The position numbers and the translations under genes are program-made. A DNA stretch of 64,000 nt from Erysipelothrix sp. HDW6C (GTDB lineage: Bacteria; Bacillota_I; Bacilli_A; Erysipelotrichales; Erysipelotrichaceae). Positions 25,848-49,856 of the stretch are shown in pieces. The stretch is from contig NZ_CP049861.1 of NCBI RefSeq assembly GCF_011299615.1, positions 806,001-870,000 on the forward strand. The letters are read 5' to 3'. Below the pieces are notes generated by a model. The model was not told where the DNA came from and did no database searches. It worked only from the letters and a program-made list of their open reading frames with translations. Within the stretch, counting starts at the first letter, position 1, and each line of letters begins with the position of its first letter.

Positions 25848-27194
25848 ATGAAACAACATATTGATATGCTCCATGGAGACATTAAACCAACGCTAATTAA
25901 AATATCATTTCCGATAATTCTATCGAACTTTATTCAAACTGCGCTTGGGATGTTTGACATGATCTGGGTTGGAAGGCTTGGAAGTGGCGCAGTGAGTGCG
26001 GTAGGAACTGCGAGTTTCTATGTAAATTTAGCGACGGCAATCTCAACGATTATCACAATTGGGACCGGCGTTCGTGTTGCACAAATGCTGGGGAAAGGTG
26101 ATAAAGAGAGTGCCCGTGTTTATAACAAAAATGGCCTTCTTGTCGGCGTGATACTAGGGCTTTTATTCAGCCTTGTCGTTGGTATATTCTCACCGCAACT
26201 ATTGGCATACTTTGGAATAATAGATACATCGATCCTAACCATGGCGAAGGAGTATCTTGTGGTATCCCTTTTAGGAATTCCCCTTATGTTCTTAATATCT
26301 GTTTACACCACAATCTATACAAGTTATGGTGATACCAAAACAACATTTAAGGCCAATGCAATTGGGTTGGTGATAAACTTAATTCTTGATCCTGTATTCA
26401 TTTTTGGATTGGGAATTATGCCGGCGCTTGGGGTTGTCGGAGCGGCATGGACGAATAATATTGCCCGAGTGATTACGCTGGTTCTTTTGATTGTTTATTC
26501 GAATGAAGAGATCAAACAGAGCCTTCATGCGCGATTTAACTTTAAGCGCACACTTGAAGTTTTTAAATTAGGGTTACCAATTACTGCACAGCGAGTGCTT
26601 TTTTCCTATATATCAATGGCAATGGCAAAAATCATTGTTCAATTTGGTGCAGAGGCAATTGCGGTACAGAAAATTGGTATTCAGATTGAGTCAATAAGCT
26701 ATGTCACAGTTGGAGGTCTACAGGGGGCGATATCTGCCTTTGTAGGTCAAAACTTTGGCGCAGGAAAGCTCAGTAGAATTAAAGATGGATACCGACAATC
26801 GCTCCAACTTGTACTCATTTTCGGTATCGCTGTATCAGCACTCTTCATAATTTTTCCTAAGCAGATATTCAGTGTTTTTATCGCTGAACCGGAAATTATT
26901 AACGATGGTGTCGGATACATGCGTGCCATTGGGTTATCACAAGTCTTTATGTGCATTGAACTCTTAACAGTAGGAGCCTTCAATGGTATTGGGAAGACCT
27001 ATATCCCACCAATTATTTCTGTTATCTTTACGATCATGCGCATCCCATTGGCACTGCTCTTGTCACAATCAATGGGGCTTATGGGCGTATGGTGGAGTAT
27101 CAGTTTAACAAGTGTATTCAAAGGTGTCAGTTTGTTCTTGTGGTTCAATTACACAATGTCAGAGAAACGAGGAACTCAAAATGTCGCAGTATAA
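25848..27194 (+). CDS. MATE family efflux protein
   Basis: The protein has 448 residues and 12 predicted helices in two homologous halves; typical MATE signatures include the N-terminal GDIKPTLIKISFPIILSNF and SAVGTASFYVN. The family exports cations, drugs or metabolites using Na+ or H+. Here it sits between arsC and gshF, replacing the usual arsenite pump, so export of an arsenic species or thiol conjugate is possible but unproven. Its 3' end overlaps gshF by 14 nt. Confidence 0.92.
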   Translation: MKQHIDMLHGDIKPTLIKISFPIILSNFIQTALGMFDMIWVGRLGSGAVSAVGTASFYVNLATAISTIITIGTGVRVAQMLGKGDKESARVYNKNGLLVGVILGLLFSLVVGIFSPQLLAYFGIIDTSILTMAKEYLVVSLLGIPLMFLISVYTTIYTSYGDTKTTFKANAIGLVINLILDPVFIFGLGIMPALGVVGAAWTNNIARVITLVLLIVYSNEEIKQSLHARFNFKRTLEVFKLGLPITAQRVLFSYISMAMAKIIVQFGAEAIAVQKIGIQIESISYVTVGGLQGAISAFVGQNFGAGKLSRIKDGYRQSLQLVLIFGIAVSALFIIFPKQIFSVFIAEPEIINDGVGYMRAIGLSQVFMCIELLTVGAFNGIGKTYIPPIISVIFTIMRIPLALLLSQSMGLMGVWWSISLTSVFKGVSLFLWFNYTMSEKRGTQNVAV

Positions 27195-29436
27195 TCTATT
27201 CAAAGGGATGTTTGGCATCGAAAAAGAGAATATTCGTGTTACGAATGATGGGGTAATATCTCAAAGCCAACATCCAAGCGTGTTTGGCGAACATAATCCC
27301 TATATCATGCGTGACTTCTCAGAAGCCCAACTTGAAATGGTAACGCCACCCGTTAAATCGATCACAGAGGCCTACCAGTTCTTGGGGAATATTCAAGATA
27401 TCGTACTGCGCACACTTGAATCCGAATACCTATGGCCGCAAAGTAATCCTCCGATTCTTCCCAACGAAGCTGCGATTCCAATTGCTGAATATCGGGATAC
27501 GAATAAAAAAGAATATCGAGACTATTTAAGCAAAAAGTATGGAAATAAACGTTCAGTAATTTCCGGTATTCATTTTAACGTGTCATTTGATGATACAGTA
27601 TTACGCAAACTGTGGAAGCAGACTCATGAAGTGGACTTTGAAGACTTTAAAGATTCGCTATACTTAAAGGTCGCAAAGTACTTTCAATACTATCGATGGT
27701 TCTTTATTCACGTGATGGCAGCAAGTCCAGTGTTTCACGACAGTTTTGTTGAGAAATGTGTGCAAACTAGCCAACACAACAAGCAAGGAGACTGTTCCTA
27801 TGAAGGGCTTGCTTCGTTGCGGAATAGTGTGTGCGGATATCGTAATGATGCGTTACTGTTGTTGGACTATAACTCTTTTGAAGGCTATAAAAATTCGATC
27901 GAGAGCCATATAGCGCAAGGCTCATTGAGTGGTGCATCGGAACTTTACGAGGCTGTACGCCTGAAGTCTAAAAACAACAATCACATTACCTATCTTGAAT
28001 TACGATTTATTGATATTAATCCCCTGTTTTCGATTGGGGTAAATCAAAGTGATCTCGAACTCATTCACATGTTTATGGTATATTTTGCGATGCAACCTGA
28101 TTTTGATTTTAATGATAAACTACAAGAAATTGCGGCAGTAAATCATGATATTGCCAGCAGAAATTTCGCAGATGATGAGATTATCGACTCTAATCAAGCT
28201 CTGCAAACCATTACGGATGCATCGCTTCAACTGCTGCGCTCGCTTGAAGAATACGTGAACTTAATTGAGAATGTGCCTTATGATTCGAATACAGTTTTAA
28301 CGCAGACACGATTGCGCATTGAAACCTCTACTATGAGTTACAGTTCACAGATTCGTTCTGAAATCGCATCTCAAGATTACATATCGTTTCATATGGATAT
28401 GGCGCGCAATTACACCCAAGAAAGTCTAGATAATCCCACACGCTTCTACGGTTATGAAATGTTGGAACTTTCGACACGAATCGTGTTGCAAGCAGCAATT
28501 CGTAAGGGTTACCACTTCGAAATCATGGACGCTGATGCGAATTTCATCCGCATTAAAGATGGTAATGCAAATGCCTGGGAATATATTAAAGAAGCTACAA
28601 AGACTCGATTGGATCCCTATAGTTCAGTTCTTGTTATGGAAAATAAAGCAGTGACCAAACGCGTGCTTGATGAAGATGGAATCCCTGTTCCACAAGGGTT
28701 TGTGGTTGCAAACAAGCGAGAAGGTTTGCAACTGTATCGTGAAGGTCTTTTGCCATCAGCACTCGTTGTGAAACCAAACAATACCAATTTTGGAGTTGGA
28801 ATTACCATATTTCCACATACCTATACAGAGTTACAGTTTCAAACAGCCCTTGATCATGCTTTTGAAGCCGATTCAACGGTTTTACTGGAATCATTCATTT
28901 CTGGTGAAGAGTACCGTATTCTCATCATTGGGGGAAAAGTAGAAGGCATTCTTTATCGCAGACCTGCCAGTGTCGAAGGGGATGGCATTCACACGATCAA
29001 GGAACTGGTAGAAATTAAAAACAGGAATCCACTTCGTGGGTACCACTATACAAAACCCTTGGAGAAGATTCAAATTGATAATGTTGTTATTGATTTTCTT
29101 CGCCAAAACGATGCCAATGTTGATACCGTTCCACTTCAAGGAGAACGCATTTTCTTAAGAGAAAATTCAAACATTAGTACGGGTGGGGACAGTATTGATG
29201 TAACGGATAATGTTCATAGATCATACTTTCGGATTGCGGAACAAGCCGCACGGGCATTGGATGTTTCCATAACAGGTGTAGATATGATGATAGCGAATAT
29301 TAGTGAACCCGCAAACGATACGAATCATGCAATCATTGAAATGAATTTTAATCCCGCAATTCATATTCATTGTTTTCCTTACAAAGGTAAAAACAGAAAT
29401 ATTGGCGATACAATTCTTAATGTACTCACTAAATAA
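27181..29436 (+). CDS. gshF: Bifunctional glutamate-cysteine ligase / glutathione synthetase
   Basis: The protein has 751 residues, matching GshF/GshAB. The N-terminal two thirds are a GshA-like ligase (GIEKENIRV; MRDFSEAQLEMVTPP; LRNSVCGYRN); from about residue 480 an ATP-grasp domain follows (VLVMENKAVTKRVLDEDGIP, GVGITIF, LESFISGEEYRILIIGGK, and a C-terminal IIEMNFNPAIHIH). It makes glutathione from Glu, Cys and Gly in one protein. ATG 27181 has GAGGA upstream; it lies inside the MATE gene end, so translation is coupled. Linking glutathione synthesis to an ArsR-controlled operon is notable. Confidence 0.96.
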   Translation: MSQYNLFKGMFGIEKENIRVTNDGVISQSQHPSVFGEHNPYIMRDFSEAQLEMVTPPVKSITEAYQFLGNIQDIVLRTLESEYLWPQSNPPILPNEAAIPIAEYRDTNKKEYRDYLSKKYGNKRSVISGIHFNVSFDDTVLRKLWKQTHEVDFEDFKDSLYLKVAKYFQYYRWFFIHVMAASPVFHDSFVEKCVQTSQHNKQGDCSYEGLASLRNSVCGYRNDALLLLDYNSFEGYKNSIESHIAQGSLSGASELYEAVRLKSKNNNHITYLELRFIDINPLFSIGVNQSDLELIHMFMVYFAMQPDFDFNDKLQEIAAVNHDIASRNFADDEIIDSNQALQTITDASLQLLRSLEEYVNLIENVPYDSNTVLTQTRLRIETSTMSYSSQIRSEIASQDYISFHMDMARNYTQESLDNPTRFYGYEMLELSTRIVLQAAIRKGYHFEIMDADANFIRIKDGNANAWEYIKEATKTRLDPYSSVLVMENKAVTKRVLDEDGIPVPQGFVVANKREGLQLYREGLLPSALVVKPNNTNFGVGITIFPHTYTELQFQTALDHAFEADSTVLLESFISGEEYRILIIGGKVEGILYRRPASVEGDGIHTIKELVEIKNRNPLRGYHYTKPLEKIQIDNVVIDFLRQNDANVDTVPLQGERIFLRENSNISTGGDSIDVTDNVHRSYFRIAEQAARALDVSITGVDMMIANISEPANDTNHAIIEMNFNPAIHIHCFPYKGKNRNIGDTILNVLTK

Positions 29437-33423: not shown

Positions 33424-34530
33424 ATGAAATACGATTATTTAGTTGTGGGAGCAGGTCCCTTTGGATCGATATTCGCATATGAAGCAACAAAACGCGGCAA
33501 GCGTGTTTTGGTTATCGATAAACGTGAACATGTTGGTGGAAATCTTTATTGTAAGCCCATTGCGGGTATTAATGTTCACTGGTATGGTGCGCATATCTTT
33601 CATACCAGCAACAAAAGCGTATGGGACTATGTAAATCAATTTGCGACGTTTAATCATTTTACAAATGCGCCACTCGCCAACTACAAGGGAACATTGCTTA
33701 ACTTGCCTTTTAACATGAACACTTTCAATCGATTATGGGGTGTTAACACGCCTGAGCAAGCAAAACAGATAATTGCTGAACAACGTAAGAATTATGGTGT
33801 GTCAAATCCGAAAAACTTGGAAGAGCAGGCAATAAATTTAGTTGGCTTGGATATTTATGAAAAACTGATAAAGGGATATACGGAGAAACAATGGGGTAGA
33901 CCGTGCACAGAATTGCCTGCTTTTATTATTAAGCGTCTACCGGTTCGGTATACCTTTGACAACAATTACTTCACGGACATTTACCAAGGGATTCCTGTCG
34001 GAGGATACAATGTCCTGTTTGATAAATGGTTGAAAGATATTGATGTTACATTAAATGCGGATTACTTTGAGAATCGGACGATGTATGAGGGGATGGCAGA
34101 GAAAATAATATTTACAGGAATGATCGACCAGTATTATGACTATGAATTTGGGGAATTAGAATATCGAAGCTTGCGATTTGAACATGAACTCTTGGAAAGT
34201 GACAATTACCAAGGCAATGCAGTGATAAACTACACGGATCGTGAAACAGAATTTACGCGAATCATAGAGCATAAGCACTTTGAGTTTGGACAGGCACCAA
34301 AAACTGTAATCACACGTGAATATCCCCAAGACTATACCAAGGATGTTGAACCCTACTATCCAATTAACGATGCGCTGAATAATGAAATCTATGAAAAATA
34401 CCGCCAAAAAGCTGAAAAAGAGGCGCACGTAATTTTCGGAGGACGGTTGGGACAGTACCGTTATTTTGACATGCATCATATTATCGAAAATGTCTTAAAG
34501 CTTGTTGACACTGAATTTGACAATCAATAG
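33424..34530 (+). CDS. glf: UDP-galactopyranose mutase
   Basis: The protein has 368 residues, the usual size. The FAD motif VVGAGPFGSIFA (8-19), HVGGNLYC, YGAHIFHT and the signature YTEKQWGRP are characteristic. The flavoenzyme converts UDP-galactopyranose to UDP-galactofuranose, the donor for Galf in surface polysaccharides. Next downstream is a GT2 glycosyltransferase. GTGAGG precedes the ATG. Confidence 0.97.
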   Translation: MKYDYLVVGAGPFGSIFAYEATKRGKRVLVIDKREHVGGNLYCKPIAGINVHWYGAHIFHTSNKSVWDYVNQFATFNHFTNAPLANYKGTLLNLPFNMNTFNRLWGVNTPEQAKQIIAEQRKNYGVSNPKNLEEQAINLVGLDIYEKLIKGYTEKQWGRPCTELPAFIIKRLPVRYTFDNNYFTDIYQGIPVGGYNVLFDKWLKDIDVTLNADYFENRTMYEGMAEKIIFTGMIDQYYDYEFGELEYRSLRFEHELLESDNYQGNAVINYTDRETEFTRIIEHKHFEFGQAPKTVITREYPQDYTKDVEPYYPINDALNNEIYEKYRQKAEKEAHVIFGGRLGQYRYFDMHHIIENVLKLVDTEFDNQ

Positions 34531-34574
34531 GTCCTTTTCTATAATGAAAAAAAGCAGTGAAAGCAGGAGTCGTA

Positions 34575-35576
34575 ATGAAATTACTTAGTATTGTGGTACC
34601 GTGTTATAACTCGCAAGAATACATGAGTGTGAGTATTGATTCACTCTTAATGGGTGATGATCGGATAGAAATAATTATTGTGAACGATGGTTCAACGGAT
34701 GATACTGCAAGGATTGCGGATGCATATCACCATCGTTTTCCCGAGATGATTCGTGTCATTCACAAAGAAAACGGGGGACATGGATCCGCGATTGATGCTG
34801 GTCTGGCAGTGGCACAAGGGTTGTACTTCAAAGTTTTAGATAGCGACGATTGGTTAAATCAATCTGCACTCGAGAAAATATTAAACTATATCGAGCATAA
34901 CCAGACTGTTGATTTAATAGTGGCAAACTATCGGTATGAAAAAAAAGGTGCCCGTCACAAAAAGATAATGCATTATCGCCGTTCTATTCCCCAAGAAACG
35001 ATTGTTGGTTGGGATGCGATACACTTTCCGCTTGGTACCTACTTTATGATGCACTCCATGATTCATCGAACAGAGATTCTTCGCACAACAAAACTGGCGT
35101 TACCTGAACATACATTCTACGTTGATAATCTTTTTGTCTTTCGCTCGTTGATGCATGTTCAGACAATTGTATACTTCGATGAAATTCTTTATCACTATTT
35201 TATTGGAAGAGATGACCAATCCGTAAATGAACAAGTCATGATACGGCGCATTGATCAACAACTGCGAGTTAATCACCTCATGATTGCATACTATGTTGAA
35301 AATAGTCAGCGTGATTTCGCTGTAGATAATTATCTTTTCCACCACTTAGAAATTATCATGGCAATTTCATCAACAATGCTACGAATTGAAAACACACCAG
35401 AGAGTGAGCTGAAGCGTGCAGCACTTTGGCAGACAGTGCAAAAGAGCGACCCGCAATTGTATTCTCGTCTCACACATCGTTTGATGGGATGGAATCTTTC
35501 AAAAAAAGACGGCTTCAGTCGCCGTCTTGGAATTGTGGTCTATCGTATTACGCAGAAACTGTTTGGATTTAACTGA
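34575..35576 (+). CDS. Family 2 glycosyltransferase
   Basis: The protein has 333 residues. A GT-A fold is clear: LSIVVPCYNSQEYM at the N-terminus, IVNDGSTDDT, and the metal-binding KVLDSDDWL (about 90). The C-terminal half is soluble with no clear membrane helix. It probably transfers galactofuranose or another sugar to a polyprenyl-linked glycan, in view of the adjacent glf. ATG 34575 follows GCAGGAG; a GTG six codons earlier is less likely. Its stop overlaps the convergent kinase gene by 8 bp. Confidence 0.9.
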   Translation: MKLLSIVVPCYNSQEYMSVSIDSLLMGDDRIEIIIVNDGSTDDTARIADAYHHRFPEMIRVIHKENGGHGSAIDAGLAVAQGLYFKVLDSDDWLNQSALEKILNYIEHNQTVDLIVANYRYEKKGARHKKIMHYRRSIPQETIVGWDAIHFPLGTYFMMHSMIHRTEILRTTKLALPEHTFYVDNLFVFRSLMHVQTIVYFDEILYHYFIGRDDQSVNEQVMIRRIDQQLRVNHLMIAYYVENSQRDFAVDNYLFHHLEIIMAISSTMLRIENTPESELKRAALWQTVQKSDPQLYSRLTHRLMGWNLSKKDGFSRRLGIVVYRITQKLFGFN

Positions 35577-36870
35577 TCGATTGTTTCGCAAAGAGTACTT
35601 TAAGCTTGAACCAACCGTCATCATCGTTGATGCTGAGGTTCCCATGATATTTCTCAACAATGTAAGACATGCTTTTAATACCGTATCCATGGTATTGCGT
35701 GTCTTTTTTTGTGGTTCGCGGAAAACCGTCTTCATATTCAAGCGTACCAGAATAGGGGTTTTCGAGGGATATAATTACAAAATCATCTTTTGCGAAAATG
35801 CGTAAATTAATGACGCGTTGGTTACCTTCAAGTTTGGACACAGATTCAAACGCGTTGTCCAGCGCGTTTCCGAGAATGCTGTAGATATCAAGTGCATCCA
35901 TAAAGTTTAACTGATTTCCATCGGTCATACATGTGAATGAGATATTGTTCTGTAAACACATGAGGTTTTTCTGCGTGAGCACAGTGTCAAGAATTGGGTT
36001 TCCTGAAGCGATGGTTGCATCGTACTGTTTGATTAATTCCTCAATATCCGTTAGAACACGATTTTTAATCGTTGCATCAATGGGTTCCATGTTAAGTAGT
36101 TGGAGTTGATGTTTTAAATCATGTACTTTTTGATCGATCATACTGTTGTTTTGCCGATACTCATTGTATTGACGATATTGGTAGTAAAGCGCATTGTTAA
36201 TGGCGCCTATTTCTTCTTGTAAGTTTGACTCCCGTCGTTGGCTCTCTTGAATGTAAAGAATCGCCAACCCTAGGACATCAATCATTGTCCGGAAAATGAA
36301 AACTGCAGATGTGTCACCCAGGGGATAGGCGGTGGTTGATAATAGAAATCCTAGGTTACTCATCATAAAGATGATGGTACATGTGAGTAGCGTTATCAGT
36401 AAACTTCGTGATTGAACGGACGTATAGTCTTGTTTTGATCGCAGTGTCACAAAAAAGTAGACGGCTGCAGACACAGTGTTAATGATGAATGCAGTGATGA
36501 GAATGAGCGGTGTAATCGTTTGGTGTGCAGATGCGAAGAAGTAAAGGCTCAAGAGCCATGCGAATGAAGCTGAGAATTCAGCAAAGATAAATGCTTTCAT
36601 TGTGTTGTAAATAATTACCGTTCGATTGGCGCTGACACAAAAATTGATGGTCAGGTACATCCACAAAATATTTAGAATCATACCAAGAATCCAAAAAGAC
36701 AGTGGCCATGATTCGACAGTATGTTGTAGTACGATTTGTCCCATTGCAAACCCTAAAAATTTCAAATGCCAATAGGGTTGCTTCTTTGTAAAACTTAAAA
36801 TAATGATTAGGCATGCCATGGACTCAGCTAGGGCGGTCAAGAAACGTGGGATATTCATAAAAAGTTCCAT
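35569..36870 (-). CDS. AgrC/GHKL-type sensor histidine kinase
   Basis: The protein has 433 residues. About six membrane helices (1-205) precede a short coiled segment and a GHKL kinase domain. The phospho-acceptor is His in QKVHDLKHQL (about 246); the N-box is NALDNAFES (about 337) and the G-box HGYGIKS. Kinases of this type pair with LytTR regulators and often sense peptides; no peptide precursor gene is visible nearby. It is co-transcribed with the response regulator (TAATG overlap). Confidence 0.9.
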   Translation of the reverse strand: MELFMNIPRFLTALAESMACLIIILSFTKKQPYWHLKFLGFAMGQIVLQHTVESWPLSFWILGMILNILWMYLTINFCVSANRTVIIYNTMKAFIFAEFSASFAWLLSLYFFASAHQTITPLILITAFIINTVSAAVYFFVTLRSKQDYTSVQSRSLLITLLTCTIIFMMSNLGFLLSTTAYPLGDTSAVFIFRTMIDVLGLAILYIQESQRRESNLQEEIGAINNALYYQYRQYNEYRQNNSMIDQKVHDLKHQLQLLNMEPIDATIKNRVLTDIEELIKQYDATIASGNPILDTVLTQKNLMCLQNNISFTCMTDGNQLNFMDALDIYSILGNALDNAFESVSKLEGNQRVINLRIFAKDDFVIISLENPYSGTLEYEDGFPRTTKKDTQYHGYGIKSMSYIVEKYHGNLSINDDDGWFKLKVLFAKQSIS

Positions 36871-37574
36871 TAGCGTCCTCCTAAGTGTTCGGTCAGTGCA
36901 TTCATAAAGTCCTTCTTACGAGGTCGACTAATGCGTAGCGCATACTTACCTACAAACGCAGTATCATCTTTAATCGAGGATACATGGTTGAGATTCACAA
37001 GGTAATGATTGTTGCAGCGATAAAATGCATAGGGTGCAAGTTGTTCTTCGATGGCTTTGAGTGTCTCAATGGAGATAACGGATTTACCATCGGTATGGTA
37101 GTGAACATAATGCCCTTGGCTCTCAATGAAGTAGATATCATCAAGGCGCAGTTTCGTAATTTCATTTTTATATTTTACCGTTATTGTGGGTGCGTTGTCT
37201 GTTTGTGAATAGCGTTTTAAAAATTTATTAAAATGATTCTCAAACTTAAAAGGGTTGATTGGCTTAAGAATGAAGTCAAATGCTTCAACACTGTAACCTT
37301 CGACAGCATATTGAACAAAATTTGTGACAAATACAATCGGTGCATCAGATGGGAAACTCCGTATTGCTTGGGCGGTTTGCATGCCGTTAAGCTCTGGCAT
37401 TTCAACGTCCAGATAAATGAGGTCAAAATTATTTTGGAATTGGTCAATAAAGGATTGTCCGTTGCTAAAGCAAGAAATTTCGATTTCGAGTGCTGCCTTT
37501 TGGCTTGCCTCTTGGATAACATCGTGAAGTTGTTGTTGCATTAATTCGTTGTCTTCGACGATTGCAATTTTCAT
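36870..37574 (-). CDS. LytTR-family response regulator
   Basis: The protein has 234 residues. The receiver domain has the acidic pair VEDNE and the phospho-Asp in LIYLDVEMPE (about 54), with KPINP. The LytTR DNA-binding domain (about 130-232) contains DIYFIESQGHYVHYHT and YRCNNHYLVNLNHV. ATG 37574 is preceded by AAGGTGG. It is divergent from the GH3/GtrA/GH3 genes, whose promoter region has spaced direct repeats. It probably activates them; that is inference. Confidence 0.93.
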   Translation of the reverse strand: MKIAIVEDNELMQQQLHDVIQEASQKAALEIEISCFSNGQSFIDQFQNNFDLIYLDVEMPELNGMQTAQAIRSFPSDAPIVFVTNFVQYAVEGYSVEAFDFILKPINPFKFENHFNKFLKRYSQTDNAPTITVKYKNEITKLRLDDIYFIESQGHYVHYHTDGKSVISIETLKAIEEQLAPYAFYRCNNHYLVNLNHVSSIKDDTAFVGKYALRISRPRKKDFMNALTEHLGGR

Positions 37575-37665
37575 GGTTCCACCACCTTGTGCCTTAATAG
37601 TAACTGAATCATGGCAATTAGGCAAAAATAAATTACAGATTATGTCACAATGTTGACAGGTTGTG

Positions 37666-37701: not shown

Positions 37702-37732
37702 CTAGACTTAGATAAGGCTAGGAGTTATGACG

Positions 37733-40147
37733 ATGGATATCAAACAAACAATAAAAAAAATGACACTTTTACAAAAAGCATCCCTTATGTCAGGGCAAAC
37801 CCAATTTGACTCAAGAGCAATTGCGAGTTTAGACATACCCAGCATAAGCTATGCTGATGGACCGCATGGCGTGCGTAAACAACTGGGTTCAGCAGACCAC
37901 TTGGGACTGAATGAAAGTGCGAAAGCAACGTGCTTCCCTACGTCGGCGACAACTGCGAATTCGTGGGATGTTGCGCTTGGCGAACGCGTGGGTCGCGCTC
38001 TTGGCGAAGAATCACTGTATCATAATGTCGATGCACTACTTGGTCCCGGACTGAACATCAAACGCAATCCGAAATGTGGTCGCAACTTTGAGTATTTTAG
38101 TGAAGACCCCTATCTCTCAGGTAAGATGGCTGCCGCATATATTCGTGGTATCCAGGCAAATGGAACCATTGCAACACCGAAACATCTTGCCGTAAACAGC
38201 CAAGAGTACAAACGAATGACTTCAGATTCCATTGTTGATATGCGTACGTATCGTGAGATTTATACGACAGCATTCGAAATAGCTGTAAAAGAAGGTGGCG
38301 CAAAGTCAATCATGACATCTTATAATCTCATCAACGGCATTTATGCAAATGAATCAGAACAGTTGTTGCGGTCGATTCTCGTTGATGAATGGGGCTTTGA
38401 AGGATTTGTTGTCTCGGACTGGGGTGGGAGCAACGATCATGTATTGGGTGTAAAAAATGGAAGTCATGCTGAAATGCCGGGTACAGGAATCAATGGACCA
38501 ATTGAACTTGTTGAAGCGGTCCAAGCAGGACATCTCAGAGAGGAAATTCTCGATCAAAGGGTTGAAGAGTTCCTGCGCATTGTTATGACTTCAAATGCAA
38601 ACAAGCCCCAAAATGTAATTGATGAAAATGAACATCATGAGATTGCACGTGAAGCAGCATTAAAAAGTGCGGTCCTATTAAAAAACGAACACAATATCCT
38701 GCCTTTAAGCGCAAACACAAAGGTTGCGATTGTAGGTGACTTTGCATATACACCACGATATCAAGGTGCGGGCTCATCGGTTATTAACCCAACCCAGCTT
38801 GAATCAATCCAATCAGTTTATAAAAACTATCCCATCAATGTTGTGGGAATGGCACAAGGCTTCGAACGCTGTAAGCCTTTGGACGTAAAGACTCTACCGA
38901 CGACCAATGCAGCAATCAAAGATGCAGATGTTGTAATCCTGTTTCTTGGTCTTGACGAAATCAGTGAAAGTGAGGGGATGGATCGCGCATCCATTCAATT
39001 ACCACAGGCACAACGCGAACTGCTCAAATATGTTAAGGATCAGAAAAAACAAACAATTGTCGTTTTGTCCTCAGGATCGGTTGTTGATATGTCATGGGAT
39101 GTGAATGCGGATGCAATCCTTCACAGTTATCTATCGGGCCAAGCAGGTGCTGGTGCAACTTTGGAATTATTAACAGGGGCAGTGAGCCCAAGTGGAAAAC
39201 TTGCAGAAAGCTATCCTGTAAGTTATGACGATGTTCCTTTTGGAGAAGATTTTCCAGCAATGGGAACGTATGCGTACCATCGTGAAGGTATTTTTGTTGG
39301 CTATCGTTATTATGAAACACAAAATGTAGCGGTCAAGTATCCCTTTGGATTCGGTTTGAGTTATACACAATTTGAATACAGCAATATCAAAGTAGAATCC
39401 AATAATGTATCAGTTGATGTTCGCAATACAGGATCTGTCTTAGGTTCAGAAATCGTACAAATGTATGTGGGTAAAAAAGATTCATTGATTCCACGTCCTG
39501 CTAAGGAATTAAAAGCATTTGCGAAAATTACATTGGAACCCAGTGAAACACAAACTGTATTATTAAATTTTGATGACAAATCATTCCGTCATTACAGTGG
39601 TATTAACATGCGTTGGGAAGTTGAAGGCGGTGTGTATCAAATTATGGTGGGCCGTGATGTACAGTCCATTGAAGGGTGTGTTGACGTTACGGTCGAACCC
39701 ACAAATTTCAATGCGGATACATTAGATCCATTTTATCCAGAATATTTCCTTGGAAATGTTCGTGCAAGTTCTATGAAAGATTTTGGTCGTCTGCTTGGCT
39801 ACGATGCGCCTCGAGAATCGGGGAAAAGAAATGTTATCGAGAAGAACAGTACAATTATGGACCTTAATGATGCAAAGAATCCCCTTGCGCGATTCGTAAG
39901 TTACTGCTTTAGAAAACTCATTACACGCAATGAACGCAAAGAAAAACCAGACCTGAATCTTCTGTTTATGTTCAATATGCCGTTTAGAGCGATTGGAAAA
40001 ATGACGAATGGTCTGGTGGATAATGCCATGATTGATGGATTACTCACAATTTGCAATGGGCATTTCTTCAAAGGTTCGTCTCAATTCATAAAGGCCTGGA
40101 ATGCGAATCGAAAACGTCGTAAAGATCCGCAATGGGAGATTCACTAA
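37733..40147 (+). CDS. Glycoside hydrolase family 3 (beta-glucosidase-like), cytoplasmic
   Basis: The protein has 804 residues and the normal GH3 order: N-terminal barrel with nucleophile Asp229 (GFVVSDWGG) and YADGPHGVR, NFEYFSEDPYLSG; GH3_C domain; fibronectin-III-like domain (about 535-660, starting after YPFGFGLSYTQFEYS). A ~130-residue C-terminal extension (MPFRAIGKMTNG...NGHFFKG) is additional. No signal peptide is present, so it cleaves imported beta-glycosides in the cytosol. ATG 37733 is eight bases from AGGAG; 37727 would be only two. TAATG overlap couples it to gtrA. Confidence 0.92.
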   Translation: MDIKQTIKKMTLLQKASLMSGQTQFDSRAIASLDIPSISYADGPHGVRKQLGSADHLGLNESAKATCFPTSATTANSWDVALGERVGRALGEESLYHNVDALLGPGLNIKRNPKCGRNFEYFSEDPYLSGKMAAAYIRGIQANGTIATPKHLAVNSQEYKRMTSDSIVDMRTYREIYTTAFEIAVKEGGAKSIMTSYNLINGIYANESEQLLRSILVDEWGFEGFVVSDWGGSNDHVLGVKNGSHAEMPGTGINGPIELVEAVQAGHLREEILDQRVEEFLRIVMTSNANKPQNVIDENEHHEIAREAALKSAVLLKNEHNILPLSANTKVAIVGDFAYTPRYQGAGSSVINPTQLESIQSVYKNYPINVVGMAQGFERCKPLDVKTLPTTNAAIKDADVVILFLGLDEISESEGMDRASIQLPQAQRELLKYVKDQKKQTIVVLSSGSVVDMSWDVNADAILHSYLSGQAGAGATLELLTGAVSPSGKLAESYPVSYDDVPFGEDFPAMGTYAYHREGIFVGYRYYETQNVAVKYPFGFGLSYTQFEYSNIKVESNNVSVDVRNTGSVLGSEIVQMYVGKKDSLIPRPAKELKAFAKITLEPSETQTVLLNFDDKSFRHYSGINMRWEVEGGVYQIMVGRDVQSIEGCVDVTVEPTNFNADTLDPFYPEYFLGNVRASSMKDFGRLLGYDAPRESGKRNVIEKNSTIMDLNDAKNPLARFVSYCFRKLITRNERKEKPDLNLLFMFNMPFRAIGKMTNGLVDNAMIDGLLTICNGHFFKGSSQFIKAWNANRKRRKDPQWEIH

Positions 40148-40647
40148 TGTACAAAATTAAAGAAGTTATCGCATCATTCAAAGCAAAGAATCCCAATATC
40201 TATGAATTCATTATGTTCAATATCATGAGCAATGTCGCAACAATCGTAAACTTTATTGTGTTATGGATTGGGAACGCCGTTCTTTTTAAAGCCTTGGCAG
40301 ATAGACCCTTTAAATGGTTCATCTTCGATTATCCTGTTAAGGTTGGGGGACTTGCAGGAATACTGAGTTTCTTACTGGCATATGTTTGTGCTCAGATTGT
40401 AAACTTCATTGTTCAACGTAAAGTAGTATTTAGCGCAAATGTTTCGATTAAAAAAGTCTTGCCATGGTATATCTTGACTGTTACTGTAGCAGGATTGATA
40501 TCCGTATGGTTGCCACCTTATGTGATAACGCTCATCCAACCGTATGTTGGATCGTGGGCACCTACAATTTCGAACATGGTGAATATTATGGTGCAAGTAC
40601 TGATTAACTATCCGATGATGAAGTTCAAAATAATGAAACAAGACTGA
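40147..40647 (+). CDS. GtrA-like membrane protein
   Basis: The protein has 166 residues with four membrane helices, and matches GtrA family features (YEFIMFNIMSNVATIVNFIV; FLLAYVCAQIVNFIVQRKVVF). GtrA-like proteins are linked to flipping or modifying lipid-linked sugars at the membrane. Its start overlaps the GH3 stop (TAATG), and GGGAG lies eight bases upstream inside the GH3 gene. It sits between two GH3 genes, close to glf and a GT2, which points to surface glycan modification. Confidence 0.87.
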   Translation: MYKIKEVIASFKAKNPNIYEFIMFNIMSNVATIVNFIVLWIGNAVLFKALADRPFKWFIFDYPVKVGGLAGILSFLLAYVCAQIVNFIVQRKVVFSANVSIKKVLPWYILTVTVAGLISVWLPPYVITLIQPYVGSWAPTISNMVNIMVQVLINYPMMKFKIMKQD

Positions 40648-40765: not shown

Positions 40766-43666
40766 ATGAAGAATTTTGATTGGAAGAAAAATGGTATCAA
40801 AATTGGCTTCGGCGCAATTATGGCTATTGGAATTATTATCATGGGTTTTGCAACATTTGATAATAGTTTCTATGGAATCAATGTCGTTCGTTCGCTAAAT
40901 ATCTTGAAATGGGTCACAACTGGATTGTTAGTCATTGCGCTCGCATATTCGATTTATCGTATTGTGACACTGAAGAAAACACGCAAGGTACTCTACTCGT
41001 TGGTCGTGGTATTGTTGGTTGCTTTGGTTGCAGCAAACTTCATCCTACCATCTTATGGTATCGCAGCAAACCGTTTTGTTGGTGTTGGGAATTATGATAA
41101 AGAACTTGCCCAACAATACAAAGAAGAAGGGCGTGCACTGACTGAAAAAATTCAAGACGAAGGAATCGTCATGCTTGAGAATAAAAACAACACGTTGCCA
41201 CTTCAAGCTGAAAAAATTAATGTATTTGGATATGTCTCAAACTCCGTGATTTACGGTGGTACAGGGTCGGGTGGTGGAAAGCCTGACAACAACGTCACAC
41301 TACGTCAAGGTCTTGAGAATGCGGGATTCCAACTCAATGATGAACTCACAACATTCTATGAGGACCGATTTGTTCCGCGCGAAAAAGTTGATATTCATAA
41401 ACTCGTCGGAGGTGACTACAACGTTCACGAACCTGCGTTGAGTGAATATACAGATGAAATGATTGCAAACGCAAAAGCACACAGTAATACAGCGGTTGTT
41501 ATGTTTGGTCGTAATGCTGGAGAAGGTGCTGATATGGCAGCGGATATGGCGAATTACGAAGGTGGAACAGCCGGTGATCACTATCTTAAATTAACTGCAA
41601 ATGAGAAAGACTTGTTGGGTATGTTGGAAAAAGAGTTTGAGAATGTTGTTGTACTTCTTAATGCTCCAAACCAACTTGAACTTGGCTTCCTTGAAAATGA
41701 GGGTGTGGATGCTGCTCTATGGCTTGGCTATCCTGGATCAACAGGTTTCAACGCTGTTGGTAATGTCTTGTCTGGTAAAGTGAATCCTTCAGGACGCCTG
41801 GTAGATACATATGCTTATGATTTAAAAACAGCGCCATCATTCTATAATACGGGTGAATTTGAGTATACAAATGCTGACTTAGTATTTGGAAAAGATACAT
41901 GGCATCATAAATATATTAACTATGCGGAAGGAATCTACATGGGATATATGTTCTATGAAACACGTTTTGTAGATAATGCAACGGGACTGGTTGATGAAGC
42001 AGCGTACAATGCTACGGTTCAGTATCCGTTTGGATATGGATTATCCTACTCACAATTTGAACAAAAAATATCAAATTATGCAGTTGCTGACGGTAAAGTT
42101 AGCATGGAAGTAACGGTAACAAATACTGGAACTTCAGCAGGGAAAGATGTCGTTCAGTTGTACTATACTGCGCCTTATACACTTGGTGGAATTGAGAAAT
42201 CGCATGTTGTCTTGGGTGATTTTGGAAAAACAGCAATCCTTGAACCAGGACAAAGTGAAAAAGTAAACGTAACGTTTGATGTCGAAGACATGGCAAGCTA
42301 TGACTATGGCAAAGAAAAAGCATACGTACTTGAGAGTGGAAACTACGAAATCAAATTAATGAAGAATGCTCACGAAGTGATTGACGCACGCACATATACT
42401 GTTGATGCACCCATTGTTTATGGTGAAGGAAACAAACGTGCTTCAGATGATGTCACTGCAATCAACCAATTTGATGATATTCATGGTGATGATGTAGTCT
42501 ATCTATCCCGAGCAGATTGGGAAGGAACATTCCCGAAAGGAATGGCACAACCTAAAGAAGCATCGGCAGCACTTATCGAAGAACTTAACAGTGAAAACTA
42601 TGTCGTTGACGAGAATGCTGAACCAATCGTATTTGCAAAAAATGGACTTACATTGAAAGACATGAAGGGTCTTGATTATGATGATCCACAATGGGAAAAA
42701 CTGTTGGAGCAACTTTCAATCGATGAAATGCGTGAACTTATCACATCCGGTGGATTCCAAACTGCAGCCATCCATTCAATCAAAAAACCAGCAACCATTG
42801 ATACGGATGGGCCAACAGGTGTCAACGATATCTTTGCAGGGCTTGCTGGAAATCAATATACAAGTGAAGTAACACTTGCTTCAACATGGAATCGTGATCT
42901 AGCATATGACATGGGTGTTGCCGTTGCGAATGAGGCTATCTCAATGCATATGACAGGACTTTATATGCCAGGCGTTAACTTACACCGTTCAACATTGGGT
43001 GGACGTAACTTTGAGTACTATTCAGAAGATCCATTTATTTCGGGAATCATGGGTGGATCAACAGCACAAGGTGTTGCTGATCAAGGTGCTTATGTATATA
43101 TTAAGCATTATGCAATGTATGATATGGAAACGAAACGTTACGAGTATCCAACCGGAGCTGTTGTTTGGGCAAACGAACAAACAATGCGTGAAGTCTATCT
43201 TAAGGCGTTTGAAGTTGCCATTAAGAACTATGATGTAACTGGTGTTATGTCATCGTACAACCGTCTTGGCGGAACCTGGGTTGGATCATCACAAGCACTT
43301 ATGCAAACAGTATTACGTGATGAATGGGGCTTTAGAGGTGTAGTTATCAGTGACTTCTATAAACCACAATACATGGACGTTGATGCAGGACTTGCCGGTG
43401 GAAATGACTTGATTCTGTATCCGGTTGTAACACCATTATCGGATGATACCTTGAAGACAAATTGGGGTCATCAAAATATGCGACGCGCAAGTCACAACAT
43501 TCTTTATGCAATTGGTAATAGTGGTGCTTATGAAAATGCACACCGTCAATTACCGCAATGGATGTTCCTCTTTGCAGCACTCGACTTTGTTGGAATTGGA
43601 CTGATTACATTCGGATTAATTAAGACAACCAACAGCAAAAAAATCAAAAAAGAAACAATAAAATAA
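40766..43666 (+). CDS. Membrane-anchored GH3 hydrolase with permuted domain order
   Basis: The protein has 966 residues. Three N-terminal helices (about 12-32, 45-67, 73-93) lead to a GH3_C domain (about 130-365), then YPFGYGLSYSQFE with a fibronectin-III-like domain (about 425-550), and only then the catalytic GH3_N barrel (about 640-910; NFEYYSEDPFISG; nucleophile about Asp863 in VVISDF). One more helix and a KK-rich tail end the protein. Positive charges place the catalytic part outside the cell. Reversed GH3 order is known from some rumen beta-glucosidases; anchoring at both ends is unusual. GGAGG precedes ATG 40766. Confidence 0.92.
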   Translation: MKNFDWKKNGIKIGFGAIMAIGIIIMGFATFDNSFYGINVVRSLNILKWVTTGLLVIALAYSIYRIVTLKKTRKVLYSLVVVLLVALVAANFILPSYGIAANRFVGVGNYDKELAQQYKEEGRALTEKIQDEGIVMLENKNNTLPLQAEKINVFGYVSNSVIYGGTGSGGGKPDNNVTLRQGLENAGFQLNDELTTFYEDRFVPREKVDIHKLVGGDYNVHEPALSEYTDEMIANAKAHSNTAVVMFGRNAGEGADMAADMANYEGGTAGDHYLKLTANEKDLLGMLEKEFENVVVLLNAPNQLELGFLENEGVDAALWLGYPGSTGFNAVGNVLSGKVNPSGRLVDTYAYDLKTAPSFYNTGEFEYTNADLVFGKDTWHHKYINYAEGIYMGYMFYETRFVDNATGLVDEAAYNATVQYPFGYGLSYSQFEQKISNYAVADGKVSMEVTVTNTGTSAGKDVVQLYYTAPYTLGGIEKSHVVLGDFGKTAILEPGQSEKVNVTFDVEDMASYDYGKEKAYVLESGNYEIKLMKNAHEVIDARTYTVDAPIVYGEGNKRASDDVTAINQFDDIHGDDVVYLSRADWEGTFPKGMAQPKEASAALIEELNSENYVVDENAEPIVFAKNGLTLKDMKGLDYDDPQWEKLLEQLSIDEMRELITSGGFQTAAIHSIKKPATIDTDGPTGVNDIFAGLAGNQYTSEVTLASTWNRDLAYDMGVAVANEAISMHMTGLYMPGVNLHRSTLGGRNFEYYSEDPFISGIMGGSTAQGVADQGAYVYIKHYAMYDMETKRYEYPTGAVVWANEQTMREVYLKAFEVAIKNYDVTGVMSSYNRLGGTWVGSSQALMQTVLRDEWGFRGVVISDFYKPQYMDVDAGLAGGNDLILYPVVTPLSDDTLKTNWGHQNMRRASHNILYAIGNSGAYENAHRQLPQWMFLFAALDFVGIGLITFGLIKTTNSKKIKKETIK

Positions 43667-44345: not shown

Positions 44346-44397
44346 AATCATAAAATACAGATTGGTAATACAACAATACGATTGGAGAGAAGGAACA

Positions 44398-45303
44398 ATG
44401 AAAAAAGTACTGATACTATTACTTACATCCTTATTAATACTGACAGGATGTACGAATCGAAAAATCGACAATCCGGATGGAAAACTTGTCGTCATTGCCA
44501 CAACGACAATGGTTACAGATCTTGTAAAAACAATTGGTGGTGACCGAGTGATTGTTGAAGGAATGATGGTTGCCGGCGTAGATCCTCATCTCTATAAAGC
44601 AAAACCAAGCGATGTACAAGCGGTCCAAGATGCTGATGTTGTTGCATTCAGTGGGGTTCACTTGGAAGCGAAATTGGATGATGTGCTTACAGGCCTTGAG
44701 AAAACAGGCCGAAACATTATTAAGTTAGAAGATGGTTTAGACCCAAGTGATATCATTGAAGATGAAACGCAAGGGGGTCATGATCCACATATATGGTTTG
44801 ACATTAATCTTTGGAAGAAATCGGCACAACATGTTGCAAATGAGTTGGGTAAGATTGATCCTGAGAACAATGACTATTATCAAGAGAATGCAAAACAGTA
44901 TATCTCCGAACTGCATGACCTTGAAGTATATATTCAAAATAGAATCAATGAAATACCTGAAGAACAGCGTGTCTTGGTTACCGCACATGATGCTTTCGCT
45001 TACTTTGGTCGATACTTTGGAGTGCATGTAGAAGCAATTCAAGGAATATCGACGCAATCGGAAGCAGGAATTGCCGATATTAATCATGTCTCAGATTTGA
45101 TCGTAAATCGAAAAATTAAAGCAATTTATACGGAATCAAGTGTTCCAAAGAAAACAATTGAAGCTTTGCAAGCGGCAGTTAAGGATCGCGGATTTGAAGT
45201 TGAAATCGGTGGTGAAATCTATTCCGATTCACTCAAGGAAAATACAAGTTACATTGAGACTTATAAACTCAATGTCGATACAATTGTGGATAGTCTAAAA
45301 TAA
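44398..45303 (+). CDS. Metal ABC transporter substrate-binding lipoprotein (TroA/MtsA-like)
   Basis: The protein has 301 residues. A lipoprotein signal ends in LILTGC (Cys17). Cluster A-I metal ligands are visible: GVDPHLYKAKPSD, HDPHIWFD, TAHDAFAYFG and an acidic ligand near GEIYSDSL. GISTQSEAG is typical of the family. It binds Mn, Zn or Fe outside the membrane and delivers it to the two permeases. ATG 44398 follows AAGGA. It is the first gene of four, downstream of a DtxR-like box, so repression by metal is likely. Confidence 0.93.
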   Translation: MKKVLILLLTSLLILTGCTNRKIDNPDGKLVVIATTTMVTDLVKTIGGDRVIVEGMMVAGVDPHLYKAKPSDVQAVQDADVVAFSGVHLEAKLDDVLTGLEKTGRNIIKLEDGLDPSDIIEDETQGGHDPHIWFDINLWKKSAQHVANELGKIDPENNDYYQENAKQYISELHDLEVYIQNRINEIPEEQRVLVTAHDAFAYFGRYFGVHVEAIQGISTQSEAGIADINHVSDLIVNRKIKAIYTESSVPKKTIEALQAAVKDRGFEVEIGGEIYSDSLKENTSYIETYKLNVDTIVDSLK

Positions 45304-45319
45304 AGGGAAGGGAAAAAGT

Positions 45320-46060
45320 ATGTCAGAGAAAAAATATGCAATTGAAGTTGAAGATTTAACCGTTACATATGATGTAAAACCCGTGCTTTGGGATTGTGAC
45401 GTGAAATTTGAAACTGGAAAATTAACAGCAATCGTGGGGCCGAATGGTGCAGGTAAGTCGACCATGATCAAAGCGATTATGGGGCTTCTTAAACCAATTT
45501 CGGGAAAAATCACAATTAATGGAAATAGCAAACACGAAGATTATAAGAATATTGCCTATGTTCCTCAAAGTGGCAGTGTTGACTGGGATTTCCCAGCAAC
45601 CGTTGAAGACATTGTTCTCATGGGACGTTATGGTCATATAGGATGGATCAAACGACCCGGAAAAGAAGATCGTCGCATTGCCGATGAAATGCTTGAACGT
45701 GTTGGTATGGGTGCCTATCGTGATCGCCAAATCAGTCAATTATCAGGAGGGCAACAACAACGTGTATTCTTAGCGCGTGCACTTACCCAACAAGCTGATA
45801 TCTATATCCTTGATGAGCCTTTGAAAGGCGTCGATGTTAAGACTGAAGAAATCTTGATGACACTTTTAAAAGAACTGGCTGCTGCGGGTAAGACTGTGAT
45901 AGTTGTTCACCATGACCTAACCAGCATTGAAGGATATTTTGACAACATTGCTTTGGTCAACATTAAACTTGTTGCATGGGGAAGTGTGAAAGATACGTTT
46001 ACACAAGAAAACCTGAAACTTACCTACCATACAGATGTAGGAGGGATTACAAAATCATGA
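45320..46060 (+). CDS. Metal ABC transporter ATP-binding protein
   Basis: The protein has 246 residues. Walker A GPNGAGKST (about 40), the Q-loop in YVPQSGSVDWDFP, signature LSGGQQQR, Walker B IYILDEP and the H-loop VVHHD are all intact. The VDWDFPATV segment is typical of Mn/Zn (MntB/ZnuC-like) ATPases. It overlaps the next permease by ATGA. Confidence 0.95.
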   Translation: MSEKKYAIEVEDLTVTYDVKPVLWDCDVKFETGKLTAIVGPNGAGKSTMIKAIMGLLKPISGKITINGNSKHEDYKNIAYVPQSGSVDWDFPATVEDIVLMGRYGHIGWIKRPGKEDRRIADEMLERVGMGAYRDRQISQLSGGQQQRVFLARALTQQADIYILDEPLKGVDVKTEEILMTLLKELAAAGKTVIVVHHDLTSIEGYFDNIALVNIKLVAWGSVKDTFTQENLKLTYHTDVGGITKS

Positions 46061-47190
46061 TGCAAACAATTATTGATTTGTTTGGAAACTATACATTTCA
46101 AATTGTTGCACTTGGTTCAATTGCCTTGGGTGTACTCACAGGTGTTACGGGTACATTTGCAGTCCTTAGAAAACAAAGTCTCTTGGGAGATAGTATTGCC
46201 CACTCTGCTTTAGCAGGGATTACAATGGCATTCATTCTAACCAATACCAAAAATACTGAGGTACTTCTAATTGGTGCTTTGGTTGCGGGACTTCTTGCAA
46301 CATATATTATTAATATGGTTTCCAAAAATACACGAATTAACTTTGAAAGTGCAATGGCACTTGTAATGTCAGTGTTCTTTGGGATTGGGTTTATTTTATT
46401 GACTCAAATTCAAAAATCACCAGACTCGCAACAAGCGGGATTGGAACGATTCTTGTTTGGTCAAGCAGCTACAATTCTTGAACGGGATGTCTACTTTGTA
46501 GTCGGCGTCACTGTGATTGTTTTGGTACTAATGCTGCTCTTGTGGAAAGAAATTAAAGTGTTCTCATTCGATCCAGTCTACGCACATTCAATTGGGCTTT
46601 CAACAAACTTTCTAAACGTTGTACTGTCAGGTTTCATTGTGGCTGCCATTATCATGGGAATTCAGATGGTTGGGGTTGTCTTGATGTCTGCACTCATTAT
46701 AGCGCCAGCTGTAGCTGCCCGTCAGTGGACGAAGTCTCTTGCTGGGATGACAATCCTTGCCGGTTTCATTGGAGCGCTGAGTGGACTGGGTGGGACGATT
46801 GTAAGTACAGTTGTTGATAAATTTCCAACCGGTCCTGCGATTGTTGTGATTGCAAGTATCGTTGTTATCCTAAGCCTTCTACTTGCGCCAGGTCGGGGAA
46901 TTATTAACAAACTCATCCGTCAGCATGGTGCGAAACAAGCATTCGAAGCTGATATGGCGATTATAAATCTTTTAACACATCAGCTTTTGGATATTGATGC
47001 AGAATTCAGTAAAGATCAACTTCAAGATGCATGCATTATTGATCATCATCGTGAAGGAAAATCGTTTGACCGACTTTTCAATAACTTAACCAAACGTCGC
47101 ATGGTTGAACGCGTTGACGATTCCAACCGTTTCCGTCTAACCAATGTTGCGAAACTTGAATACGAACAGAATCGAGGTGATCACATATGA
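46057..47190 (+). CDS. Metal ABC permease with C-terminal winged-helix-like extension
   Basis: The protein has 377 residues. About eight membrane helices of the ABC-3 (ZnuB/MntB) family span 10-285, with SLLGDSIAHSALAGI near 45. The last ~90 residues are soluble: INLLTHQLLDIDAEF and RMVERVDDSNRFRLTNVAKLE resemble a DtxR-like winged helix. TAGGAGGG lies 12 bases before ATG 46057, which overlaps the ATPase stop. A much longer frame from 45976 overlaps the ATPase and is rejected. Confidence 0.92.
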   Translation: MMQTIIDLFGNYTFQIVALGSIALGVLTGVTGTFAVLRKQSLLGDSIAHSALAGITMAFILTNTKNTEVLLIGALVAGLLATYIINMVSKNTRINFESAMALVMSVFFGIGFILLTQIQKSPDSQQAGLERFLFGQAATILERDVYFVVGVTVIVLVLMLLLWKEIKVFSFDPVYAHSIGLSTNFLNVVLSGFIVAAIIMGIQMVGVVLMSALIIAPAVAARQWTKSLAGMTILAGFIGALSGLGGTIVSTVVDKFPTGPAIVVIASIVVILSLLLAPGRGIINKLIRQHGAKQAFEADMAIINLLTHQLLDIDAEFSKDQLQDACIIDHHREGKSFDRLFNNLTKRRMVERVDDSNRFRLTNVAKLEYEQNRGDHI

Positions 47191-48305
47191 GCTCAACACA
47201 AGTTGAAATAATCTTAATTGCATCCGTTGTAGCACTCTCGTGCTCTTTGCTTGGCGTGTTTTTGGTACTAAAAAAGATGGCCATGATGAGTGATGCGATC
47301 ACCCATACAATCTTACTTGGAATTGTCATCGGTTTCTTTATAACACATGACTTTAACTCACCGTTGTTGATCATCGGTGCAGCGATAACAGGTGTTCTGA
47401 CTGTCTACCTAATTGAAATGCTCCAACGGACGCGGCTTCTCTCAGAAGAATCCTCGATTGGTGTTGTGTTTCCCTTATTATTCAGTATCGCGATAATCTT
47501 GATTACACGTTATGCGGGTTCTGTCCATCTTGATACCGATGCTGTACTCCTTGGTGAAATATCCTTTGCACCCTTTGATCGAATGATGATCTTTGGGCTC
47601 GATATTCCCAAGAGTCTATTTACAGGTATTGTTATATTGGGTGTGGACGCCTTATTTGTGTTGATATTCTTTAAAGAATTAAAACTTACAAGTTTTGATC
47701 CATTGCTAGCAGCCACTTTAGGATTTGCTCCTGTGTTGTTGCATTATGCATTAATGACGCTTATATCCGTCACTGCAGTTGGGGCGTTCAATGCCGTTGG
47801 TTCAGTACTGGTTATTGCATTTATGATTGGACCACCAATCACTGCATTCCTCCTAACGCATGATTTAAAGAAGTTAATTGGAATCAGTTCATTGTTTGCT
47901 GTATTTAATGCAGTAGTAGGGTACTTCTTCGCAATGTACTTTGATGTTTCGATTGCCGGAAGTATGGCACTCATTACAGGATTATCATTCGGAGTCGTAT
48001 TCTTATTTTCGCCACGCGAAGGATTGCTTTCAACCAAAGTGCGACGCAAACATCAAAAAAGGGAATTTGCAGAACTTACGGTTCTCTTCCATTTATTCAA
48101 CCATGAAGCAAGTGAAGATGAAGCTGAAGAAGCAGGTGTTTGGAGCATTTATGAACATCTAAATTGGTCTCAAGCAAAGATTCAAAAAATTATCGAAGCG
48201 TTGGAGTCAAAACGTCTCATTCTCATTGATCGTGATGTTATCAAACTAACGGAACTGGGTCGAGAAATGAGCATTGACTACGCAAATTCAATTTTCGACC
48301 GTTAA
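47187..48305 (+). CDS. Second metal ABC permease with C-terminal winged-helix-like extension
   Basis: The protein has 372 residues. ABC-3 family helices span about 5-280 (KKMAMMSDAITHTILLGIV near 30). The C-terminal ~85 residues include LFHLFNHEASEDEA, LNWSQAKIQKIIEALESKRL and IKLTELGREMSIDYA, again like a winged helix. With the previous gene it forms a heterodimeric channel. Overlap is ATGA; a strong terminator ends the operon. Confidence 0.92.
   Translation: MSSTQVEIILIASVVALSCSLLGVFLVLKKMAMMSDAITHTILLGIVIGFFITHDFNSPLLIIGAAITGVLTVYLIEMLQRTRLLSEESSIGVVFPLLFSIAIILITRYAGSVHLDTDAVLLGEISFAPFDRMMIFGLDIPKSLFTGIVILGVDALFVLIFFKELKLTSFDPLLAATLGFAPVLLHYALMTLISVTAVGAFNAVGSVLVIAFMIGPPITAFLLTHDLKKLIGISSLFAVFNAVVGYFFAMYFDVSIAGSMALITGLSFGVVFLFSPREGLLSTKVRRKHQKREFAELTVLFHLFNHEASEDEAEEAGVWSIYEHLNWSQAKIQKIIEALESKRLILIDRDVIKLTELGREMSIDYANSIFDR

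Positions 48306-48414: not shown

Positions 48415-49856
<1,442 letters not shown>

Follow-up and report, generated by a model that had tools for sequence, protein, structure and literature searches.

The closest described systems are GH3 enzymes with a permuted domain order, in which GH3_C and FnIII domains precede the GH3_N barrel. The ruminal beta-glycosidase GlyA1 (5K6L-5K6O, PMC5104943) has this arrangement, and the available part of that paper places the order mainly in Firmicutes, and also in Actinobacteria and Archaea. In GlyA1 the glycon stacks on Trp710, and Arg538 is well placed for binding the sugar in subsite +1 (PMC5104943, available part); the word 'transmembrane' does not occur in that paper. 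The rumen enzyme BrGH3A is likewise permuted, has no signal peptide and is considered intracellular by its authors in the accessible part of PMC11233000. A beta-glucosidase from Paenibacillus barengoltzii (5WUG, 5WVP) shares the order, so that an earlier note placing it in a few rumen-bacterial beta-glucosidases was too narrow in scope. In the cited papers, as far as their available parts go, the permuted GH3s are soluble and linked to plant fibre; the enzyme described here combines the same swap with tethering at both ends and a changed sugar site. The reversed order itself is already known, and the new part is an anchored clade together with its gene set.

The window, a stretch of 64,000 nucleotides from Erysipelothrix sp. 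HDW6C (positions 806,001 to 870,000 of NZ_CP049861.1), encodes such an enzyme. Its parts run from N-terminal helices through GH3_C, an Fn3-like domain and the GH3_N barrel to a C-terminal helix and a basic tail:

40766..43666, plus strand: anchored permuted GH3, 966 aa (Pfam; hydrophobicity; predicted model; PDB matches)
40802..41044, plus strand: three N-terminal hydrophobic helices, aa 13-31, 46-64 and 75-93 (hydrophobicity; model helices)
41165..41947, plus strand: GH3_C domain, including the acid/base Glu253 at 41522-41524 (Pfam)
42146..42358, plus strand: Fn3-like domain (Pfam)
42776..43360, plus strand: GH3_N barrel, including the nucleophile Asp863 at 43352-43354 (Pfam)
43550..43606, plus strand: C-terminal hydrophobic helix, aa 929-947, followed by a Lys-rich tail (hydrophobicity; model)

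The length of 966 residues is preferred over a 986-aa ORF because GGAGG lies directly 5' of the start at 40766. The Pfam scan was made on the longer ORF, whose positions minus 20 give the numbering used here: PF01915 GH3_C covers its residues 154-414 (E 1.9e-33), PF14310 Fn3-like 481-551 (E 4.3e-11) and PF00933 GH3_N 691-885 (E 1e-26). The reversed order read from the sequence by the earlier note was thus confirmed, and solved permuted GH3s superpose on the protein's predicted model from end to end. The barrel Asp nucleophile and the sandwich-domain Glu acid/base that mark GH3 enzymes are both present, in the sandwich, FnIII, barrel order of the GlyA1-type subfamily. Asp863, the residue near which the nucleophile had been placed, sits in an SDF motif and Glu253 in an AGEG motif; both are invariant across 30 aligned relatives.

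An AlphaFold2 model built from the alignment of 30 relatives reached pLDDT 84 and pTM 0.86, with low values in the first three helices. Foldseek ranked the permuted GH3s 5K6O/5K6N/5K6M and 5WUG at the top (E 4.7e-58 to 4.2e-57), far above the best normal-order GH3 (E 6.7e-28). VIA-align gave the same picture: 5WVP superposed with Z 40.0 and rmsd 2.6 over 721 residues and 5K6M with Z 37.9 over 720 residues, whereas normal-order GH3s reached Z of at most 20 over approximately 270-350 residues. The P. barengoltzii enzyme is the best structural match; residues 26-830 of a chain of ∼930 pair with model residues 110-930, and the helices of the anchored enzyme have no counterpart within that match. 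GlyA1 shares domain order, nucleophile and acid/base with the anchored enzyme (Z ∼38 over 711-720 residues), but it carries an extra C-terminal domain and keeps Trp710 and Arg538, which are Phe and Asn in the anchored GH3. As the permuted-GH3 superposition covers about residues 111-928 of the 966, the helices lie no more than ∼20 residues from the fold on either side, in keeping with the proposal of tethers short enough to hold the enzyme close to the membrane.

Kyte-Doolittle peaks occur at residues 13-31 (2.23), 46-64 (1.62), 75-93 (2.70) and 929-947 (1.68), and the predicted model has helices at 6-31, 40-67, 74-96 and 931-955, with pLDDT below 60 over most of the first three and approximately 60-73 in the last. 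Topology was derived from hydrophobicity and the positive-inside rule. Lys and Arg occur at the N-terminus, between helices 2 and 3 and in the tail behind the C-terminal helix, so the catalytic part is predicted to face outside. Both this orientation and anchoring at the two ends had been proposed for the single sequence, and as predictions they extend to the whole family. Both termini carry hydrophobic helices in 72/79 complete anchored ORFs, as against 0/14 soluble permuted GH3 controls, a departure from the soluble character of GlyA1-type permuted GH3s; the 79 exclude two ORFs cut by contig ends. The count drops loci L141 and L143 (which overlap L110 and L112), identical proteins and ORFs shorter than 700 aa. 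Some of the seven ORFs without helices at both ends resemble pieces of broken genes. A single N-terminal helix is the commonest state (54 ORFs), followed by two (15), three (7) and none (3). N-termini with two helices tend to lack the basic residues found with one or three, and this charge pattern would hold the enzyme outside whatever the helix number. Past the C-terminal helix, up to 20 residues contain 4.3 Lys and Arg on average, compared with 1.4 in the 20 residues preceding it.

The active site is conserved in its chemistry and altered in its sugar contacts. Among anchored rows with a letter at the position, the nucleophile is Asp in 77/77 and the acid/base Glu in 76/78, while the equivalents of Lys630, His631 and Arg597 (GlyA1 numbering, matched by alignment and motif) are kept in 81/81. 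In contrast, the Trp710 equivalent is retained in only 4 of 77 anchored rows, against 14/14 soluble permuted and 30/30 partner rows (the normal-order GH3 described below), and the Arg538 equivalent in 2 of 81, against 13/14 and 30/30, respectively. The window sequence reads SDF and DGPTGVN, with neither a stacking Trp after the nucleophile nor the Arg of DGPxGxR. The Tyr677 position is held by Tyr in 23/80 and by Phe in 42/80 anchored rows. Because the catalytic residues are kept and the equivalents of Trp710 and Arg538 nearly always lost, the anchored enzyme should be active with an altered fit, most clearly on the leaving-group side. The same losses could be read as those of a catalytically dead GH3 serving as a membrane-bound glycan-binding protein; the near-invariance of nucleophile, acid/base and the Lys630, His631 and Arg597 equivalents makes such a protein very improbable. 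The exo-alpha-(1->6)-L-arabinopyranosidase model NF041610 was rejected as an identity for either GH3 of the locus, at 251.2 bits for the anchored enzyme and 641.3 bits for its partner with a curated cut-off of 1300.

Anchored permuted GH3s make up a separate, large and apparently undescribed clade. A scan of genome contigs yielded 38 loci in Bacillota and Actinomycetota, with 33-56% identity in the best segment. When 392 sampled genomes of the window's phylum were searched with a profile, 19 had matches at or above 484 bits, and the next score was 285 bits. One of them, G037 (484 bits; loci L115 and L144), was rejected as a member: its protein has no N-terminal helix, keeps both Arg and Trp and clusters with the soluble rows. 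Its removal leaves anchored enzymes in 18 of the 392 genomes; it is still among the 82 anchored rows of the alignment used for the residue counts. Lower-scoring permuted GH3s from 14 loci served as controls. Of 12 other genomes from the window's genus just one (G003) has a match, so the gene is patchy there. In a tree made from 125 of 126 barrels (one shorter than 200 residues was dropped), all anchored rows except G037 fall on one side of a branch with support 100. Three anchored sub-groups have supports of 85-88, under 95, and are usable as a guide only; the tree does not tell a single from a double origin of the permuted order. The window's row groups with those of L003 and L033 with support 100, and both of these loci carry Glf, GT2 and GtrA. 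Two anchored permuted GH3s are unusually long, at 2037 and 1949 aa (L093:130-6240 and L095:9690-15536); one contains a CBM-like part (PL4 domain III) and the other a sub-threshold CBM6 match. A search of the open-licence literature found no membrane-anchored permuted GH3 and no such gene set; the available parts of PMC11418510 and PMC11127362 concern neither.

The gene set surrounding the enzyme in the window comprises six further genes, arranged in the order Glf, GT2, kinase/regulator (divergent), normal-order GH3, GtrA and anchored GH3:

33424..34530, plus strand: UDP-galactopyranose mutase, Glf (NCBIfam TIGR00031, 406.8 bits, cut-off 303.75)
34557..35576, plus strand: GT2 glycosyltransferase of the module (Pfam; co-occurrence)
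35569..36870, minus strand: GHKL histidine kinase (Pfam HATPase_c_5)
36870..37625, minus strand: LytTR response regulator, divergent from the normal-order GH3 gene (Pfam Response_reg, LytTR)
37727..40147, plus strand: normal-order GH3, 806 aa, no hydrophobic helix, with a helical C-terminal extension X, aa 655-806 (Pfam; hydrophobicity; X co-occurrence; neighbour test)
40132..40647, plus strand: GtrA-like membrane protein, 171 aa (Pfam GtrA_DPMS_TM, PF04138, 31.6 bits, cut-off 26.1)

Enterococcus caccae (L003) has all seven module genes as well, and so, with several ORFs broken, do Listeria floridensis (L033) and Cellulomonas timonensis (L005). In the last of these the partner GH3 (L005:10532-11659) consists of the barrel start and extension X, the middle being missing. 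At another locus, L154, a lipoprotein with an alpha-L-rhamnosidase domain (L154:2314-4713) adjoins Glf, GT2, GtrA, an anchored GH3 and kinase and regulator genes. Near the anchored GH3 at L092, L094, L097 and L154 there are small ORFs that look like lipoproteins and belong to no known family; the two that were scanned gave no Pfam match.

The widest linkage is that of the GHKL kinase and the LytTR regulator, which stand side by side in the window. Both were present in the fetched stretch at 40 of 63 anchored loci (23/38 and 17/25 in the two sets) and at 0/14 controls, and the kinase gene is often directly 5' of the anchored enzyme gene. With six LytTR matches in the 2.36 Mb of the window's genome, approximately 0.05 would be expected by chance in 20 kb. 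To judge from gene linkage only, the pair may control the anchored GH3. A search for LytTR binding repeats (two 9-mers 21-22 bases apart) upstream of the module genes, in the window and at L003 and L033, gave nothing above first-order shuffles (p ∼0.36-0.995). The prominence of the pair also raises the idea of an accessory role in sensing and not in feeding, in which the anchored enzyme would generate or break down a glycosylated signal or inhibitor to which the neighbouring kinase responds; as the linkage fits ordinary gene regulation equally well and the module contains glycan genes, such a role is unlikely.

Residues 3-664 of the normal-order GH3 match Clostridium thermocellum BglB (7MS2) and the sesaminol-triglucoside glucosidase PSTG1 (8J9F; enzyme paper PMC3622683) at Z ∼50 with 45-46% identity. 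Among the structural matches listed, the rows end at model residue 660-664 and none covers extension X. The notion that X is unique to these loci was dropped: a further 26 genomes have ordinary GH3s that match it weakly (25-48 bits in the 16 examined), and only the strong matches track the anchored enzyme. Strong X, at 131 bits or more, was found in 17 of the 392 genomes, all within the 18 that have an anchored enzyme, G177 alone lacking it; in this sample, then, the strong-form partner gene was not found without the anchored enzyme (Fisher 7.5e-29 with kinship ignored; seven families). Nine of these genomes have their best X gene on another contig or more than 20 kb from the anchored gene. 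Since it has no hydrophobic helix, the partner is probably located inside the cell.

Genes for glycan synthesis or transfer accompany this partner. A GtrA, GT2 or Glf gene lies within 6 kb of X at 30/34 strong-X loci, as against 0/16 ordinary GH3s with weak X; in this test L141 repeats L110, L101 and L142 come from one genome, and the Glf of L110, more than 6 kb away, is uncounted. Three of the four exceptions (G122, G229 and G274) have Glf and GT2 together elsewhere in the genome. GtrA-type proteins are lipid-sugar translocases; the window's protein also exceeds the GtrA_DPMS_TM cut-off, but differs in that the start of its gene overlaps the end of a glycosidase gene, that of the normal-order GH3. 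Several GtrA relatives score under the Pfam cut-off and have long charged extensions. The GtrA-like proteins next to GH3-X at L091, L094, L101, L112, L134 and L142 have lengths of 308-394 aa; those inspected bear long charged extensions, most with a GGGGLAYFLAVQ-like stretch. Of the 18 anchored genomes, 16 have a GT2 at or above 418 bits; so do 13 genomes that lack the anchored enzyme, of which 12 belong to the window's order but to another family. In five of these 12 that were examined, all five have a similar-looking ORF of four to six helices close to GT2; two of these ORFs were scanned and both match PAP2, one above the cut-off, and a diacylglycerol kinase lies nearby at one locus.

These observations suggest, tentatively and with somewhat less than even confidence, a retaining exo-glycosidase held at both ends on the outer membrane face that cuts the terminal sugar off a surface glycan attached to membrane or wall, as part of a regulated module. 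The helices at its two ends would fix the permuted GH3 to the cytoplasmic membrane, on the outer face, where it would act on such a glycan under the control of the GHKL kinase and LytTR regulator; the normal-order GH3 with X would carry out a matching step inside, and GtrA, GT2 and UDP-galactopyranose mutase would build or move the sugar-lipid or glycan. The substrate is a guess, and so is its being the cell's own glycan or sugar-lipid, which is proposed because of the GT2, Glf and GtrA linkage. Across the family, more than one substrate is probably used. Action on membrane- or wall-attached glycan, as the earlier note had it, fits the GtrA, GT2 and Glf partners and the short tethers, but sits less well with the GH2 and GPH symporter genes near relatives, which point to sugar uptake.

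Those genes favour the main competing account, in which the module scavenges nutrients: the anchored enzyme would free sugars or trim glycosides from outside glycans of diet or host, the inside GH3 would finish the imports, the kinase pair would sense glycan or products, and GT2, Glf and GtrA would be mere frequent neighbours. GH2 genes are neighbours of anchored enzymes or of X loci in 12 genomes and GPH symporter genes in five; a single 19-row part of the tree holds eight of the former and all of the latter. Long paralogs with CBM-like, CBM6 or Ig-like domains resemble enzymes of outside-glycan harvest, soluble permuted GH3s break down plant oligosaccharides (available parts of PMC5104943 and PMC11233000), and beta-glucosidases, 8J9F and 7MS2 among them, are the nearest solved kin of the inside GH3. 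The window, however, has no sugar transporter in the module or directly adjoining it, GtrA, GT2 or Glf accompanies the inside GH3 at 30/34 loci (vs 0/16), and the +1-subsite Arg and the stacking Trp are lost. Scavenging is a serious possibility, only slightly less likely than the surface-glycan reading. That reading, in turn, is weakened by an alpha-L-rhamnosidase lipoprotein beside GtrA, GT2, Glf and an anchored GH3 at one locus, by the 13 genomes that have GT2 without an anchored enzyme, by the failure to find a LytTR binding repeat and by the shared phylogeny of the loci.

A more specific form of the surface-glycan reading is two-sided turnover, with the anchored GH3 on the outer side and X-GH3 on the inner side acting on the same galactofuranose-containing lipid-linked glycan, made and flipped by GT2, Glf and GtrA under the dedicated pair. 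This is unlikely in so detailed a form; the release of galactofuranose is hinted at by the linkage to Glf. If true, it would represent a new surface-glycan remodelling system common to Bacillota and Actinomycetota. The gene set, the invariant residues and strains such as Enterococcus caccae offer testable handles on this likely surface-glycan system.

No tRNA genes were found in the window. Downstream of the module, positions 44362-48305 encode a ZnuA-like binding protein, an ABC ATPase and an ABC-3 permease, an ordinary metal-uptake operon. A GH1 gene at 48418-49856 is spread over two overlapping frames, both halves of which match PF00232, indicating a broken gene or a sequencing error. At 27112-29436 a glutamate-cysteine ligase is fused to an ATP-grasp part, an arrangement like that of the bifunctional proteins of glutathione synthesis.
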